Shown in pieces: positions 1,464 through 29,843 of a stretch of 30,088 nucleotides of DNA. Positions within the stretch are counted from its first letter, which is position 1, and every line of letters begins with the position of its first letter. The translations under genes and the position numbers were made by a program. Below the pieces are notes generated by a model. That model was not told the DNA's origin. It searched no databases and saw only the letters and a list, made by a program, of their open reading frames with translations. The DNA is from a virus, in the IMG/VR virus record IMGVR_UViG_3300024520_000357, positions 1 through 30,088 of that record. The stretch is one strand, 5' to 3'.

Positions 1464-1718
1464 TCAGATGCTCAATGCCTTGATATATGAAAGAGCACAA
1501 ACTCCCACGGAATACTGTAGGCTATTCAGTGCGCGAAGTCGTGCATTGTGAAAATCTCCTTTTGTAAAACAAGAGACTGAATCCTGATATGCAAGTGTCG
1601 CACTGCATCGTAATTCTGGCATATATACCGCCACATCTGAACTATTCAGGGTATCGCATTCGATAGCTGCTATTTGCATCACTTCGATAGCCTGAGTTTT
1701 TGTGGTTTCTTTTTTCAT
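1464..1718 (-). CDS. small hypothetical protein, 84 aa (cassette 4)
   Basis: Not recognised. Two in-frame ATGs exist, at 1724 and 1718. The second is preferred because CCGAGGA abuts the first (no spacing) but lies five bases from the second, matching the other leaders. The protein begins MKKETTKTQ, carries five cysteines and is probably mostly helical; the second half (NARLRALNSLQYSVGVCALS) resembles a helical-repeat or four-helix segment. It has its own promoter. No terminator is seen between it and the exonuclease gene upstream, so some read-through transcription is likely. Confidence 0.65.
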   Translation of the reverse strand: MKKETTKTQAIEVMQIAAIECDTLNSSDVAVYMPELRCSATLAYQDSVSCFTKGDFHNARLRALNSLQYSVGVCALSYIKALSI

Positions 1719-1781
1719 TTTCATCCTCGGATTAGTGGTTAATGTCTACTGTCATTATACATGAACACAGTAAGAATACAA
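1719..1781 (-). promoter_or_regulatory. promoter and leader of cassette 4
   Basis: Minus strand: TTGTAT (plus 1776-1781), 16-bp spacer, TATAAT (plus 1754-1759), with CTTACTGTGTTC in the spacer (plus 1763-1774). The leader is shorter than in cassettes 2 and 3 but keeps AACCACTAAT and CCGAGGA. Confidence 0.75.
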
Positions 1782-1800
1782 GAGAATAATTAATTATCTT

Positions 1801-2349
1801 TCAAACACTCACCCGATCCGAAATCAACAAAATCAAATAGTCGTACAGCTTCGCCAAATCATCAACATCTTTCGTCGCTGTGTGGGCTCCTTCTGTTGAC
1901 CAATTCAGATACCCCCGAATAGCATCCATCGAGCAACTATCCCAGCCGGTAACACCCGAAAGTTGATGGGCCAGGGTGCGAGTACAAACCACATTATCAG
2001 GAAATGAAAAAGCCTGATTCTGTTGGTGCATCATGGCGATCAAAAACTTGATGTCAAACTGTGCATTGTGGGCCACGATAGTCCCTGGTGATCGAAGCAC
2101 CTCTGCACATTCTTTCGCAGCTTCGGATTGGCTCAGTCCAGTTTCAGCCCAAACCTCTATATCAAAACCATTGATTACCAGGGCGCGGGGATTGGCTCGA
2201 TATAGATGCTCCGGGTTGACTCTCCAAGTCCATTGACGATCCACTTCTCCATCTTGTCTCCGGAGGATGCAGATCTCTATGATCTCGTGTTTGATTGCTG
2301 ATAGTCCGGTGGTCTCGGTGTCCACAAAATAGATGGGATCGGTGTGCAT
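1801..2349 (-). CDS. DnaQ-like 3'-5' exonuclease (DEDDh type), 182 aa
   Basis: Predicted exonuclease of the DNA polymerase III epsilon / RNase T superfamily. Exo I is FVDTETTGL near residues 8-16, with the metal-binding D and E. Exo II is IVAHNAQFDIKFL in the middle. Exo III is HTATKDVDDLAKL near the C-terminus, giving the H and D of the DEDDh set. The length is normal for a stand-alone domain. The start at 2349 (MHTDPIYF) has AGAGG eight bases upstream. It is transcribed away from the replication initiator gene and is likely used in phage DNA replication or repair, or in degradation of nucleic acid 3' ends. Confidence 0.92.
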   Translation of the reverse strand: MHTDPIYFVDTETTGLSAIKHEIIEICILRRQDGEVDRQWTWRVNPEHLYRANPRALVINGFDIEVWAETGLSQSEAAKECAEVLRSPGTIVAHNAQFDIKFLIAMMHQQNQAFSFPDNVVCTRTLAHQLSGVTGWDSCSMDAIRGYLNWSTEGAHTATKDVDDLAKLYDYLILLISDRVSV

Positions 2350-2370
2350 TTTGGATACCTCTGTGATCAA

Positions 2371-2399
2371 TTGGCTGAACCGTGTTATATTCCTATCAC
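2371..2399 (+). promoter_or_regulatory. candidate rightward early promoter
   Basis: TTGGCT (2371-2376), 17-bp spacer, TATCAC (2394-2399). The spacer contains GAACCGTGTTAT (2377-2388), a member of the motif family in the other phage promoters. It faces the initiator gene across a long leader of about 150 bases. The -10 box is weak. Confidence 0.4.
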
Positions 2400-2507
2400 A
2401 CCCTAACAACCGGAACAATTCCAAACGGTCACCAGTTGACCACAAACAAAAACCCGCTGATCAAAGTCGCAAAACAAGAAATCAACGGGTCAGAATGTCC
2501 ATGTACA

Positions 2508-2524
2508 GTGTAACACATTTACAC
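2508..2524. promoter_or_regulatory. inverted repeat, possible operator before the initiator gene
   Basis: GTGTAA CACAT TTACAC is a perfect dyad with 6-bp arms and a 5-bp centre. It lies 30 bases upstream of the initiator start codon and overlaps sequence resembling the promoter-spacer motif. It could bind a repressor or the initiator itself for autoregulation. No protein can be assigned from sequence. Confidence 0.4.
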
Positions 2525-2554
2525 CTTGGGCACGAACATCACCAAGGAGTCAAA

Positions 2555-3403
2555 ATGTCAAAACCAAAATTCGCCCAAATCACTATTGAAGAGATGGGGC
2601 AACTAATGATTAAGAAGCCCCCAGCCTCAGCGATTGCTGTGTATATCTCTCTTGTCTCCCATGATCTCAGAGGAACCGGATCGGTATTCCCACGGATCAT
2701 CCGAATGGCTGAAAACCTGAAAATCTCAGATCGACAGGTCTATCGTGGATTGGCTTGGTTGAGAGAAAACGGATTTGTAAAACAGGGAAGTTGTAGAAGC
2801 CAGGAACGATTTATCCTTGTTTTGAGACATGACATATCTGACATGGAAACCTGTCAACCCGGACAGGAAAACCTGACAAATGTGACAGGAAACCCTGACA
2901 TATCTGACAAACCTGACATATCTGACAGGGTGGAGGGAAAGGAGCCCTGTCAAGTAGGACAGTCAAACATGACAAATCGGACAATTGAACCTGACATATC
3001 TGACATAAAAACCTGTCAAATCGGACACCATAAAAGAGAAAGAAAAGAAAATGAAGAGACAATTAATTATTCTATAGCCCCGTATCAATTTGTAGAGTCT
3101 CCAAAATCTGAACCCCAGGCATCAATAAAAATAGAAAAGGATTGGATTCCAGAAAAGCCAAAACAGAACGGATCCCCAAAATGCCCGTCCGGAATACCCC
3201 AAGACGTATTCGATTGGGTTCGCGTTTGTTCTCCCGTGGTGGCTACAGCCAAGATCTGCCATTTGACTCCACTGAGAAAGAACCCCGACATTGAGCAGAT
3301 GTTGGAGAAGTACCCACCACCGAAGAACGTGGATCCAAGCTGTCTGCCTCGGTTGGTCAAGTCACCGGGGACAATACAGATCCTGATGAGGTTGATGATA
3401 TGA
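2555..3403 (+). CDS. replication initiator-like winged-helix protein containing the origin, 282 aa
   Basis: The start at 2555 (MSKPKFAQ) follows AAGGAG. Residues 20-85 form a winged-helix domain of the kind found at the N-terminus of phage and plasmid replication initiators: a helical SAIAVYISLVSHD segment, then recognition-helix-like KISDRQVYRGLAWLRENGFV and a wing. Residues about 92-160 are a low-complexity linker (PDISD, TCQ.GQ) forced by iterons in the DNA below. The C-terminal 100 residues are not recognised. The arrangement, an initiator gene with iterons inside it and an AT-rich stretch downstream, parallels lambda gene O. The stop overlaps the next start (ATGA). Function is inferred from architecture. 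Confidence 0.72.
   Translation: MSKPKFAQITIEEMGQLMIKKPPASAIAVYISLVSHDLRGTGSVFPRIIRMAENLKISDRQVYRGLAWLRENGFVKQGSCRSQERFILVLRHDISDMETCQPGQENLTNVTGNPDISDKPDISDRVEGKEPCQVGQSNMTNRTIEPDISDIKTCQIGHHKRERKENEETINYSIAPYQFVESPKSEPQASIKIEKDWIPEKPKQNGSPKCPSGIPQDVFDWVRVCSPVVATAKICHLTPLRKNPDIEQMLEKYPPPKNVDPSCLPRLVKSPGTIQILMRLMI
2830..3027 (+). repeat. nine iterons, dominant 22-bp period (predicted origin of replication)
   Basis: Nine copies of a 14-mer with consensus TGWCAWNNNKGACA start at 2830, 2852, 2874, 2896, 2914, 2948, 2970, 2992 and 3014. Six of the eight steps are exactly 22 bp; the others are 18 and 34. Four copies are identical (TGACATATCTGACA). Because 22 is not a multiple of three, the unit is read in different frames, so the conservation is for DNA, not protein. 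This is a classic iteron signature for initiator binding on one face of the helix. Confidence 0.88.
3028..3077 (+). other. AT-rich stretch beside the iterons (probable DNA unwinding element)
   Basis: Directly after the last iteron the sequence becomes purine- and AT-rich (AAAAGAGAAAGAAAAG) and then contains AATTAATTATTC. An AT-rich segment adjoining iterons is the expected melting site of lambda-type and plasmid origins. The role is inferred from position and composition. Confidence 0.6.
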
Positions 3404-3948
3404 CTACAGATGAGATTCGCGCACTTGCAAAATGCAGCAAAGAAGAGATCCTGATCTGGTTGGCGATTCGTTCAAAACTGGAGATAGGGCACCACGAGAT
3501 CTCAGAGATTACCGGACTTGACGCAAATAGCATCAAACGAGGATCGGCCAGGCTGAAAAGCCGGGGGATGATGAGGACAACAAAGAGAGGAGGCCAACGG
3601 GTCAACACCTACAAAACCAAGATACCCCCATCTCCATCATTGGAGGAAGCCGGGATTTTGGAGATGTTCCTTTCTCTCCACCGTAGATGGTCAGCGGATC
3701 CATTCACAAAATGGTGTGGTTCAACTCGGTGGTTTTCCAGGGCTGCACAACTGCACCGATTCGACGATCCCGCAAAACATGAAAAGGTGAAGCATACTCT
3801 TTCGCTGATTGATCAATGGATGGAGGGCCAACAATCTCTCAGGCTTCTATTTCCTGATTCGATAGTCCCCATTTGGCGCGGTTCGGATTGGATGACTGCA
3901 ATTCCAAGGGTGATCAATGGTGGGCGTATCTGGATTACGACAGGGTGA
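3400..3948 (+). CDS. winged-helix protein, possible replication partner, 182 aa
   Basis: The start overlaps the initiator stop (ATGA), so the two are translationally coupled. Residues 10-65 look like a second winged helix: EILIWLAIRSKLEIG, then HHEISEITGLDANSIKRGSA as the HTH and a basic wing. The C-terminal half (about 80-182) has tryptophan-rich helices (RRWSADPFTKW, TRWFSRAAQL) and no recognised catalytic motif. Position suggests an accessory replication factor, such as a loader or second DNA-binding subunit, but no homology to lambda P or DnaC is visible. It ends exactly against the stop of the convergent small gene at 3949. Confidence 0.6.
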   Translation: MTTDEIRALAKCSKEEILIWLAIRSKLEIGHHEISEITGLDANSIKRGSARLKSRGMMRTTKRGGQRVNTYKTKIPPSPSLEEAGILEMFLSLHRRWSADPFTKWCGSTRWFSRAAQLHRFDDPAKHEKVKHTLSLIDQWMEGQQSLRLLFPDSIVPIWRGSDWMTAIPRVINGGRIWITTG

Positions 3949-4110
3949 TCACTTTTCGGGGCAGTTTTGTACTCGTTCATGGAGGGTGTGGATGATGGGG
4001 ACCATCTCAACCCGGATCTGTCTTAATTCTGACCAAACCAGGATCGCAAGTACGATTGTCGGGGCTTCTTTCATGATGGAGATTATCGTCTGGATCTTAT
4101 CGTCGCCCAT
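3949..4110 (-). CDS. small membrane-associated protein, 53 aa
   Basis: This convergent gene's stop directly abuts the stop of the upstream plus-strand gene (TGA then TCA). It begins MGDDKIQTIIS and has one hydrophobic segment, APTIVLAILVW, followed by a charged amphipathic helix (SELRQIRVEM..LHERV). Single-pass small proteins like this occur near phage holins. A start at 4110 is chosen because GGGGTG lies six bases upstream; an ATG at 4134 would add eight residues. It fills a gap that has no convincing plus-strand gene. It could be a holin accessory or regulatory protein. Confidence 0.5.
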   Translation of the reverse strand: MGDDKIQTIISIMKEAPTIVLAILVWSELRQIRVEMVPIIHTLHERVQNCPEK

Positions 4111-4231
4111 TTTGCACCCCAAGAGATACCCCATGATAACCGGTGGGATCTGGGTGCTGGGTGTTGGTGGCTGTTTTCGGATCTCAGGATAATTCCAATT
4201 TGGGTGTATATTTGTATTTTGGAGGTTTTCG

Positions 4232-4609
4232 ATGATTGATCAATTGCTGGGTTCGCTTTTGGATTACAGCGCCCTGGGGCTCTTTGCCATTTATTTAATT
4301 TATGGGTCCATCCAATCTGCCAAAAAACAAGACAAGATGCTTGCCGACTTCACTGCTGAGTTGGAGGAACTACGAGACCGAAGGGAGAAAGAATTAGCGG
4401 ATCTTCGGGATCGTTACCAGGCAGTGATTGAGGATATAAATTCCCACCGGGATTCTCTCACCGATGGGATTGATCGAAAGTTGAAGGGCGTTTTCGCATC
4501 GCTGAATAAACTGCAATCCACCATCGACCATGTAGCGATCCGGGTGGAGGACATTCGAACAGAGGAGAAGATCCGAAGGGCGGCAGAATTGAGGGGAGGA
4601 GGGGATTGA
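4232..4609 (+). CDS. holin-like membrane protein with coiled coil, 125 aa
   Basis: One N-terminal transmembrane segment (about residues 12-28, YSALGLFAIYLIYGSI) is followed by a long, highly charged coiled coil (LEELRDRREKELADLRDRY, then further heptads to about residue 105) and a basic tail ending in RGGGD. A single membrane span plus a cytoplasmic coiled coil fits small phage membrane proteins annotated as holin-like or spanin-like. There is no lipobox. The start follows GGAGGT (4220-4225). A small membrane gene lies just upstream on the other strand. Function is inferred only from topology. Confidence 0.6.
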   Translation: MIDQLLGSLLDYSALGLFAIYLIYGSIQSAKKQDKMLADFTAELEELRDRREKELADLRDRYQAVIEDINSHRDSLTDGIDRKLKGVFASLNKLQSTIDHVAIRVEDIRTEEKIRRAAELRGGGD

Positions 4610-4656: not shown

Positions 4657-4691
4657 ACAGTAGAGTATAGAAAGAAACCACCGAGGACAAA

Positions 4692-4865
4692 ATGAAAACA
4701 AGCGAACTTATCAAAGGCCACATCAATCACCCAACTGCAACCAGAAGCGGGGAATGTAGCAGATACACCGATTATTGGAGCGTGTTGGTGATTTGGGAAA
4801 GTGGGGCTCACATACACATGTTCAACACAAAAGCCGAAGCGATCAACTGGATCAAATGGGCATAA
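4692..4865 (+). CDS. small hypothetical protein, 57 aa
   Basis: The ATG is preceded by the conserved leader ACCACCGAGGACAAA. The product begins MKTSELIKGH and ends TKAEAINWIKWA. The second half, YWSVLVIWESGAHIHMF then NTKAEAINWI, has the strand-strand-helix pattern also seen in the proteins at 151-363 and 6744-7055. It has its own promoter at 4629-4656. The short length, strong leader and promoter support a real gene. Function unknown. Confidence 0.65.
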   Translation: MKTSELIKGHINHPTATRSGECSRYTDYWSVLVIWESGAHIHMFNTKAEAINWIKWA

Positions 4866-6705: not shown

Positions 6706-6743
6706 TGAGTATGGAATTAACCACTAAAACCACCGAGGACAAA

Positions 6744-7055
6744 ATGAAAATCAAAACGGCATTCAGTGCAGCAAGAGAAGGCACATCACAAATGATTTGG
6801 GATCGGGTTGCTGTTGTTGTAGATGAAAACGACGAAGAGATGATGAACAAAAACAAAGCAATCGTGACAGCACATAAAGAAAGCTCCTCTGGATGGTATT
6901 CAAATTCAGACGGAACAAAAACATTTCGGAACACAAAACGTTTTTTCTACTGGGAAGTAATGATCGAGGCTACCGATCCTTCCCTTTCGTTCGGAAAATC
7001 ATTCCGATCCAGAAAAGAAGCAAAAGAATTCATCAAAGATAATCTGTTGAACTAA
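6744..7055 (+). CDS. small hypothetical protein, 103 aa
   Basis: The start at 6744 is chosen because the conserved leader CCGAGGACAAA lies directly upstream; an ATG at 6705 would use the promoter itself as coding sequence. The protein is basic overall. Its C-terminal 45 residues contain RFFYWEVMIEA, then SFRSRKEAKEFIKDNLL, a strand-strand-helix pattern shared with the proteins at 151-363 and 4692-4865. No family is assigned. Confidence 0.6.
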   Translation: MKIKTAFSAAREGTSQMIWDRVAVVVDENDEEMMNKNKAIVTAHKESSSGWYSNSDGTKTFRNTKRFFYWEVMIEATDPSLSFGKSFRSRKEAKEFIKDNLLN

Positions 7056-8500: not shown

Positions 8501-8769
8501 AGCGTTTGGAAGAATACCGCTATTTCAACGCGATCGACAAAAACGGAAATACTTGTAATTTGTTGCTATCTCCGTTTGAGGTTGCACTATCAAAACAGCG
8601 GATCGAGGAATACCCAGAAGTGAGAACATGGAAACCGGATCCGTGGGCTCCACCACAACCAGGCCCAACGCTTCCAAACCCTCCAAGACTTGATCCTCTT
8701 CGGGTCGGTGGTGTCTTCGCTTGTGTTCTGGTTGTCTTGTTTCTGCTCGTTAATTGTGGGTGTGGGTGA
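8497..8769 (+). CDS. hypothetical protein with C-terminal membrane segment, 90 aa
   Basis: The GTG at 8497 overlaps the previous stop (GTGA). An ATG at 8476 would add seven residues. The first 45 residues are charged and helical (KRLEEYRYFN, FEVALSKQRIEEY). A proline-rich segment (DPWAPPQPGPTLPNPPRLDP) follows, then one hydrophobic helix (VGGVFACVLVVLFLLV) and a cysteine-rich end (NCGCG). This tail-anchored topology could serve a membrane-linked early function, but none is known. TGATG links it to the methyltransferase gene. Confidence 0.5.
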   Translation: MKRLEEYRYFNAIDKNGNTCNLLLSPFEVALSKQRIEEYPEVRTWKPDPWAPPQPGPTLPNPPRLDPLRVGGVFACVLVVLFLLVNCGCG

Positions 8770-10421
8770 TGGATACAACATTGGAACCATCGTCATACTT
8801 TACAAAAACATCGGATCTCACACCGTGGGAAAAGAACCCCCGAAAGAATGATCATGCTGTTGATGAGGTGGCGGGATCAATCGAGCGCTTTGGCTTCTCA
8901 TCTCCGATAATCGCAAACCAGGAACTCAGAATAATAGCCGGGCACACCAGGTGGAAGGCAGCGCAAAAACTCGGTCTCGAATATGTGCCCGTTCGGGTTC
9001 TGGATCTCAATGATGCAGAATGTCAACTTCTCGCAATCGCTGACAACAAACTGGGAGAATTGGCCGATTGGGACGATGGGGTTTTGAACGATGTTCTCAA
9101 CCGACTACAGGACGAGGGGAAGGATCTAACCGGGATCGGATTCGATGAAGAGGAACTATCAACCCTATTAGAGCGGATCGACGATACCGAAGAGGTTGAT
9201 AAAGAATTGCCAGAACCCCAGCCGGTTATCGTGGACGTATCCGGAGAGATTCGGCAGGGTGATTGTATCGAGTTGATGAGGCAAATGGAGCCATGCTCGA
9301 TTGATGCCATAATTACCGATCCACCATACGGCATAAATTTCATGGGGAAAGGTTGGGATTGCTCCGTGCCAGGTTTGGAGTGGGCGCGGGAGTGCTTTCG
9401 AGTTCTCAAGCCAGGTGGCCACATTTTGGCATTTGGTGGAACCAGGACGATTCATCGGTTGACATGTGCGATTGAAGATGCACAGTTTGAGATACGCGAC
9501 CAAATTGCATGGATGCAATTCCAAGGCTTCCCAAAATCTCTCAATATATCGAAAAATATCGATGATATGGCGGGGGCGGTTCGGGAGGTTGTGGGGATGG
9601 GAGGCGCGAGGTGTTCCGATCTTGAGGCTGGGAGGCCGTGTAGTCATTCCGAAAGAGAGGAGAGGTCACAATCTGGGGGAACAGTTCACACCATGCGAAC
9701 CAAACCCAAAACCCCAGACGCGATCAAGTGGGACGGGTACGGAACAGGTTTGAAACCCAGCTACGAATTGGCAATACTGGCAAGAAAGCCAATCGAGGAA
9801 AGCACGATCACGAAACAGGTTTTGAAGACGGGAACCGGGGCTTTGAATATTGACGGGTGCAGATTCGCCTATGGTGACCCGTGTTGGGTTGGTCCACAGG
9901 ATGATCCGGGGAATAGGAATAATACACAGGAGAGGTTTTCTCATACTGTTCATTTACCACCCGTTTATTTGGAGTCATCCGATCTGGGAAGATGGCCAGC
10001 AAACATCTATCAATGCCCAAAACCGTCACGAGATGAGCGGGAGCGTGGGTGTGAGGATTTGGAGGCTGTGACAGGTGCCGAGGCTGTAGAACGAAAAGAA
10101 GGATCAGCGGGAAAAGACAACCCAAGAGCGGGAGCAGGTCGAACAGCGGAAACCGTGAAGAACAACCACCCAACGGTCAAACCCTTGGGAGTCATGAAGT
10201 GGCTGTGTAAACTGGTTGGAGGTCAACCGGGATCGGTGATCTTGGATACTTTCAGCGGTTCGGGAACTACAGGCTGTGCTGCTGTTCTCCAAGGCTTCAA
10301 CTTTATCGGTCTGGAAATGGATCCCCGATATGTGGAGATAAGCCGGGCCAGGTTGGCCTATTGGTCAGGAGGTGGTGAAGATTCCGAGGTGGATGATGGG
10401 AAAGGCTGGCAGACCGAGTAA
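8769..10421 (+). CDS. ParB-like domain fused to DNA methyltransferase, 550 aa
   Basis: The start is the ATG overlapping the previous stop (TGATG); a start at 8754 is disfavoured. Residues about 10-95 are ParB/sulfiredoxin-like: NPRKNDHAVDEVAGSIERFG, then IIAGHTRWKAAQKLGL and the trailing LLAIADNKLGE. From about residue 160 a class-beta amino-methyltransferase follows: catalytic DPPYG at residues 184-188 precedes the SAM-binding FSGSGTT at 495. HPTVKPLGVMKWL before motif I is also typical. The enzyme probably methylates an exocyclic amine (N6-adenine or N4-cytosine), likely to protect phage DNA from host restriction. The target site cannot be read from sequence. Confidence 0.92.
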   Translation: MDTTLEPSSYFTKTSDLTPWEKNPRKNDHAVDEVAGSIERFGFSSPIIANQELRIIAGHTRWKAAQKLGLEYVPVRVLDLNDAECQLLAIADNKLGELADWDDGVLNDVLNRLQDEGKDLTGIGFDEEELSTLLERIDDTEEVDKELPEPQPVIVDVSGEIRQGDCIELMRQMEPCSIDAIITDPPYGINFMGKGWDCSVPGLEWARECFRVLKPGGHILAFGGTRTIHRLTCAIEDAQFEIRDQIAWMQFQGFPKSLNISKNIDDMAGAVREVVGMGGARCSDLEAGRPCSHSEREERSQSGGTVHTMRTKPKTPDAIKWDGYGTGLKPSYELAILARKPIEESTITKQVLKTGTGALNIDGCRFAYGDPCWVGPQDDPGNRNNTQERFSHTVHLPPVYLESSDLGRWPANIYQCPKPSRDERERGCEDLEAVTGAEAVERKEGSAGKDNPRAGAGRTAETVKNNHPTVKPLGVMKWLCKLVGGQPGSVILDTFSGSGTTGCAAVLQGFNFIGLEMDPRYVEISRARLAYWSGGGEDSEVDDGKGWQTE

Positions 10422-29717: not shown

Positions 29718-29843
29718 AAGAGAGGGGGCAGGACCGAGGGATCCCACCCCCAACACCTCGAAAGATGTGCGGGGAACCACCCCCACGGGATCATAATACT
29801 CTGATTGACGGTGGTGGGCAATAATGCAAAAGGGCAAAAAAAA
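29718..29843. repeat. 126-bp direct repeat, right copy
   Basis: Identical to bases 1-126, at an offset of 29717. The two copies diverge after 8 versus 9 A in their terminators. Left of this copy is the start of the fibre operon; right of it lies a gene different from that beside the left copy. If the genome is circular, this repeat is one place seen twice. Confidence 0.95.
29793..29821 (-). promoter_or_regulatory. candidate promoter of the fibre operon
   Basis: Minus strand: TTGCCC (plus 29816-29821), 17-bp spacer, TATTAT (plus 29793-29798), inside the repeat. It would give an untranslated leader of about 120 bases containing a GC-rich stretch (two CCCCC blocks and GGGATCCC) before the 29668 start. 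The site lacks the TTACTGTGTT spacer motif of the early promoters. Confidence 0.4.

Follow-up and report, generated by a model that had tools for sequence, protein, structure and literature searches.

The question raised by this locus is why a phage replication initiator gene should carry, in the middle of its coding sequence, a short DNA word repeated ten times at mostly regular spacing. The gene lies in a virus record of 30,088 bases (IMG/VR IMGVR_UViG_3300024520_000357), the whole of which was analyzed and is referred to here as the window, and in which genes of a tailed phage are present (terminase, portal with a Mu F-like part, head protease, tape measure and minor tail protein). The features around the repeats are as follows.

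Within 1801-2445 (scanned as 1804-2352), leftward: exonuclease gene.
2353-2554: intergenic region from which the leftward exonuclease gene and the initiator gene diverge.
2555-3403, + strand: initiator gene, 282 aa, with HTH_36 at aa 24-75, the array-encoded linker and a C-terminal helical domain at aa ~208-282.
2830-3027, + strand: array of ten iterons, each with a 14-bp core TGWCAWNNNKGACA, spaced for the most part at 22 bp and with imperfect dyad symmetry; the iteron unit consensus is approximately GGNAAACM-TGWCAWATCKGACA.
2896-2927, + strand: central dense cluster, in which the half-site TGACA occurs four times, exactly every 9 bp (2896, 2905, 2914 and 2923).
3028-3079, + strand: AT-rich, purine-rich tract directly 3' of the last iteron, a candidate DNA-unwinding element.
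3400-3948, + strand: second gene, 182 aa, joined to the initiator gene by an ATGA overlap (4 bp).

Strict matches to TGWCAWNNNKGACA were found on the + strand at 2830, 2852, 2874, 2896, 2905, 2914, 2948, 2970, 2992 and 3014, that is, 275-472 bp inside the initiator gene. An earlier, sequence-only reading of this DNA had described the array correctly but counted nine iterons; there are ten strict copies, the core at 2905 overlapping each neighboring core by 5 bases. The steps between cores are 22, 22, 22, 9, 9, 34, 22, 22 and 22 bp, which agrees with the dominant 22-bp period proposed in that reading (six of nine steps), and the 34-bp step separates the dense 9-bp cluster from the next core. 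When one mismatch to TGWCAWNNNKGACA was allowed, the window contained 16 matches against 5.55 expected, a number reached in none of 100 shuffles, and the three of these 16 that lie outside the array are no more than chance would give. Dyad symmetry is centered on the iteron, where 99 of 162 pairs match, compared with 70 and 78 at the spacer centers and 17-58 at other offsets (counted over nine sites each in the window and the relative described below, without the overlapping core at 2905 and its counterpart). Most cores are preceded by AAAC, the four letters being present in 13, 12, 13 and 15, respectively, of 16 units from the window and the relative (excluding 2905, 2914 and the matching units of the relative). 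Relative to the helical phase kept by the 22-bp steps, those of 9 and 34 bp would be out of register, and the 52 bp from 2896 to 2948 would come near five helical turns.

Relative to the gene, the ten cores lie in frames 2, 0, 1, 2, 2, 2, 0, 1, 2 and 0. A step of 22 bp is, as had been claimed from the letters of the DNA, out of frame with the codons; the iteron word therefore passes through all three reading frames, and this single word is translated as DISD, CQxGQ or (L/M)TNxT. Permutation of synonymous codons with the protein kept (n = 5000) yielded a mean of 1.3 cores and a maximum of 6 vs. the 10 observed, while codons drawn from the usage of eight other window genes (n = 5000) yielded a mean of 0.4 and a maximum of 4. 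These analyses bear on the possibility that the array is a peptide repeat of the protein, with the DNA repetition as a by-product. PDISD does recur, and the same 14-mer, TGACATATCTGACA, is present in another viral contig (L057, 2520-2700) within a 78-bp whole-codon repeat of two copies, in a gene that we read as tail-fiber-like and that provides a useful negative control. In the initiator gene, however, the word yields three unrelated peptides in three frames, shuffles that preserve the protein destroy the repeats, and codon changes in the array are mostly nonsynonymous while the motif letters stay. The peptide repeat was rejected by the frame analysis, and we regard it as almost certainly the wrong explanation.

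A relative of the initiator with 71% protein identity was identified on a 25.5-kb contig (L002); no further relatives were found in the viral contigs or genome contigs searched, nor did tblastn against phage records give any, with E limits of 1 for the full-length protein and 10 for its HTH part. An exact scan of viral contigs for TGACATATCTGACA returned at least 120 stretches; among 123 sequences, only the window, its duplicate L001 and the contig with the relative (L002, L076) had more than two strict copies per 300 bp. HTH_36 was matched in one of the 50 contigs searched among the 120 bearing TGACATATCTGACA, and this match was below the cut-off.

The relative's array consists of ten sites (seven strict and three with one mismatch) at identical steps of 22, 22, 22, 9, 9, 34, 22, 22 and 22 bp, and positions 2830-3027 align to it without gaps. 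Differences between the two phages affect 5 of 100 motif letters, as against 28 of the 98 array positions outside the motif (Fisher p 6e-6), a contrast that comes from one pair of phages and that recombination or repair between repeats could mimic or add to. Of the third codon positions, 2 of 33 differ among motif letters, 10 of 33 in the rest of the array and 41 of 91 in the part of the gene that precedes it, the first and last of these contrasting at p 3e-5. Changed codons are synonymous or nonsynonymous in a ratio of 37:10 before the array (91 codons) and 7:18 within it (67 codons), so that amino acid changes outnumber silent ones in the very stretch where the motif letters are kept. Judged from these two aligned sequences, the array is under constraint acting on the DNA, with a weaker constraint on the amino acids. 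The linker peptide is partly kept (49 of 67 array-encoded residues are the same), as is entailed by the kept DNA, and much of the AT-rich tract aligned unchanged. Thus the earlier proposal that the repeat is kept at the DNA level is borne out in this relative, and the comparison with related phages that it had called for gave, in the sole relative found, repeats with exact spacing rather than a linker kept without its 22-bp repeats. The encoded peptide, which it had described as a filler linker, consists of residues that are predicted to be disordered (92-158), and 18 of 25 changed codons in the array alter the amino acid.

A minisatellite that is selfish or was made by slippage, and that a dispensable linker would tolerate, would likewise be compatible with predicted disorder and with codon changes that mostly alter the amino acid. 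Such a minisatellite fits poorly with spacing that is kept base for base although the third positions before the array have diverged to the extent given above, and with non-motif array positions that diverge more than the motif letters; we consider it extremely improbable.

The run of AT-rich sequence that had been noticed after the array is among the most extreme in the window: positions 3027-3076 have 22% GC, tied with seven others for the lowest value among 30,038 overlapping 50-bp stretches. These seven equally AT-rich stretches all lie in 783-1805, in or beside repeated cassettes. In addition, purines make up 86% of 3029-3063; 0.07% of 35-bp stretches are at least as purine-rich. An AT-rich region adjoining the array is part of the layout of an in-gene iteron origin, as are regular repeats in the initiator's own gene that are conserved at the DNA level, here in one relative.

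The initiator was matched by PF13730 (HTH_36) at residues 24-75 with E 4e-6 (26.9 bits vs. a cut-off of 25) and by PHROG 270, "replication initiation protein," with E 1.5e-5. Pfam gave HTH_36 and a weak HTH_11 only, with no match to PF04492 (Phage_rep_O), and searches of Pfam and PHROG matched neither a DnaB_2 (DnaD-like) or Phg_2220_C C-terminus in the initiator nor a DnaC-like loader downstream. By these profile matches the protein is an initiator of the HTH_36/PHROG 270 type and not of the lambda O family. An AlphaFold model built from two sequences shows a winged-helix-like N-terminus at modest confidence (10-residue means of 49-71 over residues 11-80), an unstructured stretch with pLDDT under 50 at residues 77-207, within which the array-encoded residues fall, and, from residue 211 on, a C-terminus of helices whose 10-residue means are 59-82. 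Foldseek against PDB returned nothing under E 0.1 (winged-helix regulators appeared at E 0.11 or worse), the best sequence match among solved structures had E 0.42, and a further fold search gave a best E of 0.008 with TM by query length of at most 0.26 among the best 50 matches listed. The fold searches on the model point to a winged helix or HTH and to nothing beyond that.

To place the array among initiators of this type, we assembled comparators from a tblastn search with TP901-1 Rep, which matched 383 phage records, the best 60 of which, TP901-1 included, were listed. The 27 comparators comprise 24 of the other 59 listed records together with TP901-1, lambda and one staphylococcal plasmid; they were chosen for spread and for an N-terminal match, with none that matched just the C-terminal part of TP901-1 Rep, and they are not independent, as phiSLT and 55-3 have the same array and several of the staphylococcal and streptococcal phages are kin. 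Periodicity was scanned in the first 900 bp against 60 shuffles, using a measure chosen after inspection of the comparator repeats, and offsets were counted from the annotated start, from the open-frame start if unannotated or, for ten comparators, from the base aligned to residue 1 of TP901-1. An earlier measure, based on 8-mer pairs out of the codon frame, was exceeded by none of 300 codon permutations in four of 20 genes (the window's initiator, its relative, lambda O and Wheelbite); it misses most comparators because their repeats step by whole codons, and the periodicity measure was used for that reason.

A periodic array that beat all 60 shuffles was detected in 21 of the 27 comparators (13 of 17 plus 8 of 10), the six failures being VanLee, AWGoat, two Helicobacter prophages, Ranunculus and Tank. 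By itself the shuffle test is lenient: of the 150 control genes, 15 scored above every one of 40 shuffles. At z of at least 6, however, 20 of the 27 comparators remained, all 20 beginning 290-421 bp into the HTH reading frame (lambda had z 5.3), compared with four of 150 other phage reading frames used as controls, none of which started at 250-440. In the window, the best periodic stretch has an offset of 267-355, directly behind the HTH domain. The same arrangement, an HTH at residues 24-76 with a periodic array directly behind it, is shared by TP901-1 Rep, phiSLT, phinm1 and Enterococcus fHoEfm07, and the origin of TP901-1 we take to be in-gene. Pfam placed HTH_36 at residues 24-76 in 7 of 10 comparators scanned, all seven below the cut-off, and at 54-104 in VanLee, above it, with no HTH_36 match in lambda O and Javan570. 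Arrays of HTH_36/PHROG 270 comparators are often palindromic and commonly have an AT-rich stretch after them. As a separate observation, the Firmicute phages L137 (1579-1634), L139 (1579-1638), L133 (1564-1618) and L131 (1560-1606) have, after the iterons, repeats of the ACTAATAAT or ACTAAATAAT type with units of 15 bp, which are reminiscent of DnaA-trio-like unwinding elements.

The window's array also differs from those of the comparators. The commonest period among the 20 arrays is 15 bp (11 arrays), with two more at 30 bp and the rest at 16, 29, 31, 33 or 34 bp, whereas it is 22 bp here, and a DnaB_2 or Phg_2220_C C-terminus, present in four of 10 comparators scanned, is absent here. In eight comparators (the streptococcal phages Javan117, Javan570, Javan119, Javan636, phiARI0826b, GBSInt11.1 and IPP66, and the staphylococcal PT1-4) the HTH frame stops 339-384 bp in, with the array straddling or following the stop, and a separate gene annotated as DnaD follows in Javan117, Javan119 and Javan636. 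Of the 12 arrays inside a long gene, 11 have a period divisible by three, the exception being phiCD418 at 16 bp, as do three of the eight at or beyond a stop, although these samples are small and related; this is a possible sign that, where an array is translated, the codon frame shapes it as well as DNA binding. With its 22-bp in-gene period, the window groups with phiCD418 and lambda on the unusual, out-of-codon side.

The comparators also inform two readings in which the array serves DNA binding of another kind. The sites could be operators at which the initiator regulates transcription of its own gene or of neighboring genes: it is a DNA-binding protein with many candidate sites in its own gene, and 22-bp repeats near the rep promoter of pSK639 have been taken to suggest autoregulation, so far not demonstrated (PMC5703833). 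Yet the sites lie well inside the gene, no match to the iteron with one mismatch or none is present in the upstream intergenic region at 2353-2554, an origin better accounts for ten sites with so extreme an AT-rich tract behind them, and comparators are annotated replication initiators beside DnaC-like loaders or helicases (among these, VanLee and AWGoat showed no array), so that we judge operators unlikely. A partition (centromere-like) or packaging site located in the gene by chance is very unlikely. Plasmid centromeres can be iteron arrays, and the phage encodes a ParB_N-methyltransferase fusion at 8754-10421; this fusion, however, is encoded 5.7 kb away, no ParA match was found among the 30 ORFs scanned, and the array is located where HTH_36-type initiators have theirs.

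Further scans and side observations concern the surroundings of the locus. Rfam and tRNA scans of the window gave no match, and a scan of 1700-4300 found five promoter-like stretches vs. 4.5 by chance and no terminators. GATC occurs 385 times in the window against 318 expected under a trinucleotide model and ~117 by a flat four-letter count, with no occurrence in 2822-3090, and CTAG occurs once against 26 expected. An inverted repeat at 2452-2490 in the divergent intergenic region (ACCCGCTGAT / ATCAACGGGT) has 9 of 10 pairs with arms 19 bases apart; in the relative, by an alignment read by eye, both arms are changed and the pairing is kept. A cassette is repeated between the leftward genes at 102-500, 822-971, 1323-1473 and 1706-1803, which we read as a hairpin-like GC stretch with a + strand poly-A run, a promoter-like stretch and a leader to the start codon. 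A leader similar to that of the cassette, CCGAGGACAAAATGAAAA, is found on the + strand at 4675-4698 and 6727-6750, and parts of the repeated cassettes and leaders match the relative. An exact 126-bp direct repeat lies near both window ends (1-126 = 29718-29843), beyond which the copies diverge. Because a single region of the relative matches both end copies and spans the window's ends, the map, as far as sequence can indicate, is probably circular or circularly permuted; the last 245 bases of the window may be an assembly branch or real sequence beyond a true repeat.

Two lines of origin evidence were set aside. A GC-skew minimum, a sign that the sequence-only reading had proposed to look for, is present near 2251-2750; it coincides with a switch in gene direction, however, and therefore says little, and GC skew was rejected as origin evidence for this confounding. 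Opening driven by DnaA was rejected because the window contains no match to a DnaA-box consensus.

Taken together, these results suggest that the array is very probably the phage's replication origin, built into the disordered-linker part of its initiator gene, at which the initiator would bind, the tract would open and helicase would be recruited. The layout itself is already known. Ori lambda sits in the middle of gene O (PMC7466680), where O dimers are described as binding the in-gene iterons and the adjoining AT-rich tract as opening (PMC7466680, PMC6022878, PMC5043065). This phage shares with lambda O/ori an N-terminal DNA-binding domain, in-gene dyad iterons out of codon frame in a linker region, an AT-rich tract 3' of the array and a next gene that overlaps by 4 bp (P over O in lambda). 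The parallel with lambda drawn in the earlier reading therefore stands for the layout and fails for the protein family: lambda O matches PF04492 at 6e-36, a family to which the initiator has no match. Lambda has four iterons at 20, 24 and 23 bp in place of ten at mostly 22 bp plus a 9-bp cluster, and the iteron sequence here is, as had been stated, the phage's own and differs from lambda's.

A similar layout, with the origin between N-terminal DNA-binding and C-terminal domains, is described for the RepA_N protein of pSK41 and the chimeric Rep of pPR9. The pSK41 origin lies mid-rep and the linker that it encodes is dispensable in trans, and pPR9 has a pfam13730 HTH-containing N-terminus with its own origin region in that place, in a mini-replicon that replicates (PMC5703833). 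These are staphylococcal plasmids, pSK41 with four Rep boxes, and the likeness is one of layout taken from descriptions; they support the mechanism for this kind of system and not for this phage in particular. What is new here is the 22-bp array in three frames, the 9-bp cluster and the pairing with an HTH_36 protein and a second gene.

By analogy with ori lambda, a sequence of binding, stacking, opening and recruitment can be proposed. The N-terminal HTH_36 winged helix, probably as a dimer, would bind the iterons, which are 14-18 bp long and roughly palindromic; initiator complexes 22 bp apart would sit on nearly the same side of the helix and stack; the stacked complex would strain and open the AT-rich, purine-rich tract at 3028-3079; and the C-terminal domain would recruit host helicase, possibly together with the protein encoded by the overlapping second gene. 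We infer binding, melting, helicase recruitment and origin activity of the array from these features, and we count against simple stacking that the 9- and 34-bp steps break the 22-bp helical phase. No helicase or loader was recognized among 30 ORFs scanned, 10 of these with Pfam too. The second gene occupies the place where several comparators have a DnaC-like loader or helicase, its product is modeled as a winged helix with low-confidence helices, and at the level of a guess it could be a candidate partner for helicase recruitment; its relatives were limited to one protein (L123, 79% identical, on the same contig as the initiator's relative) plus one match at E 2.

On balance we favor, with less assurance than the origin itself, a rule common to phage initiators of the HTH_36 type: the origin would follow the DNA-binding domain whether translated or not, domain and origin would move as one cassette onto varied C-terminal recruiters, and a translated repeat would usually step by whole codons, with this phage's lineage having a 22-bp three-frame step. 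We found no statement of such a rule for HTH_36 phages in titles and abstract openings among the matches listed from the openly available literature. For mycobacterial RepA phages, ori sequences are described as presumably being inside or beside repA (PMC7157519).

For an uncultured phage with one relative found, these results provide a candidate origin and initiator that can be checked. The simple rule of searching directly behind the HTH_36 domain could be applied to the 383 phage records with TP901-1-Rep-like proteins, and phages whose HTH frame ends before the array seem to offer a natural check on the view of the linker peptide as filler. More generally, one DNA word read in three frames represents a clean case of selection at the DNA level inside a coding sequence.
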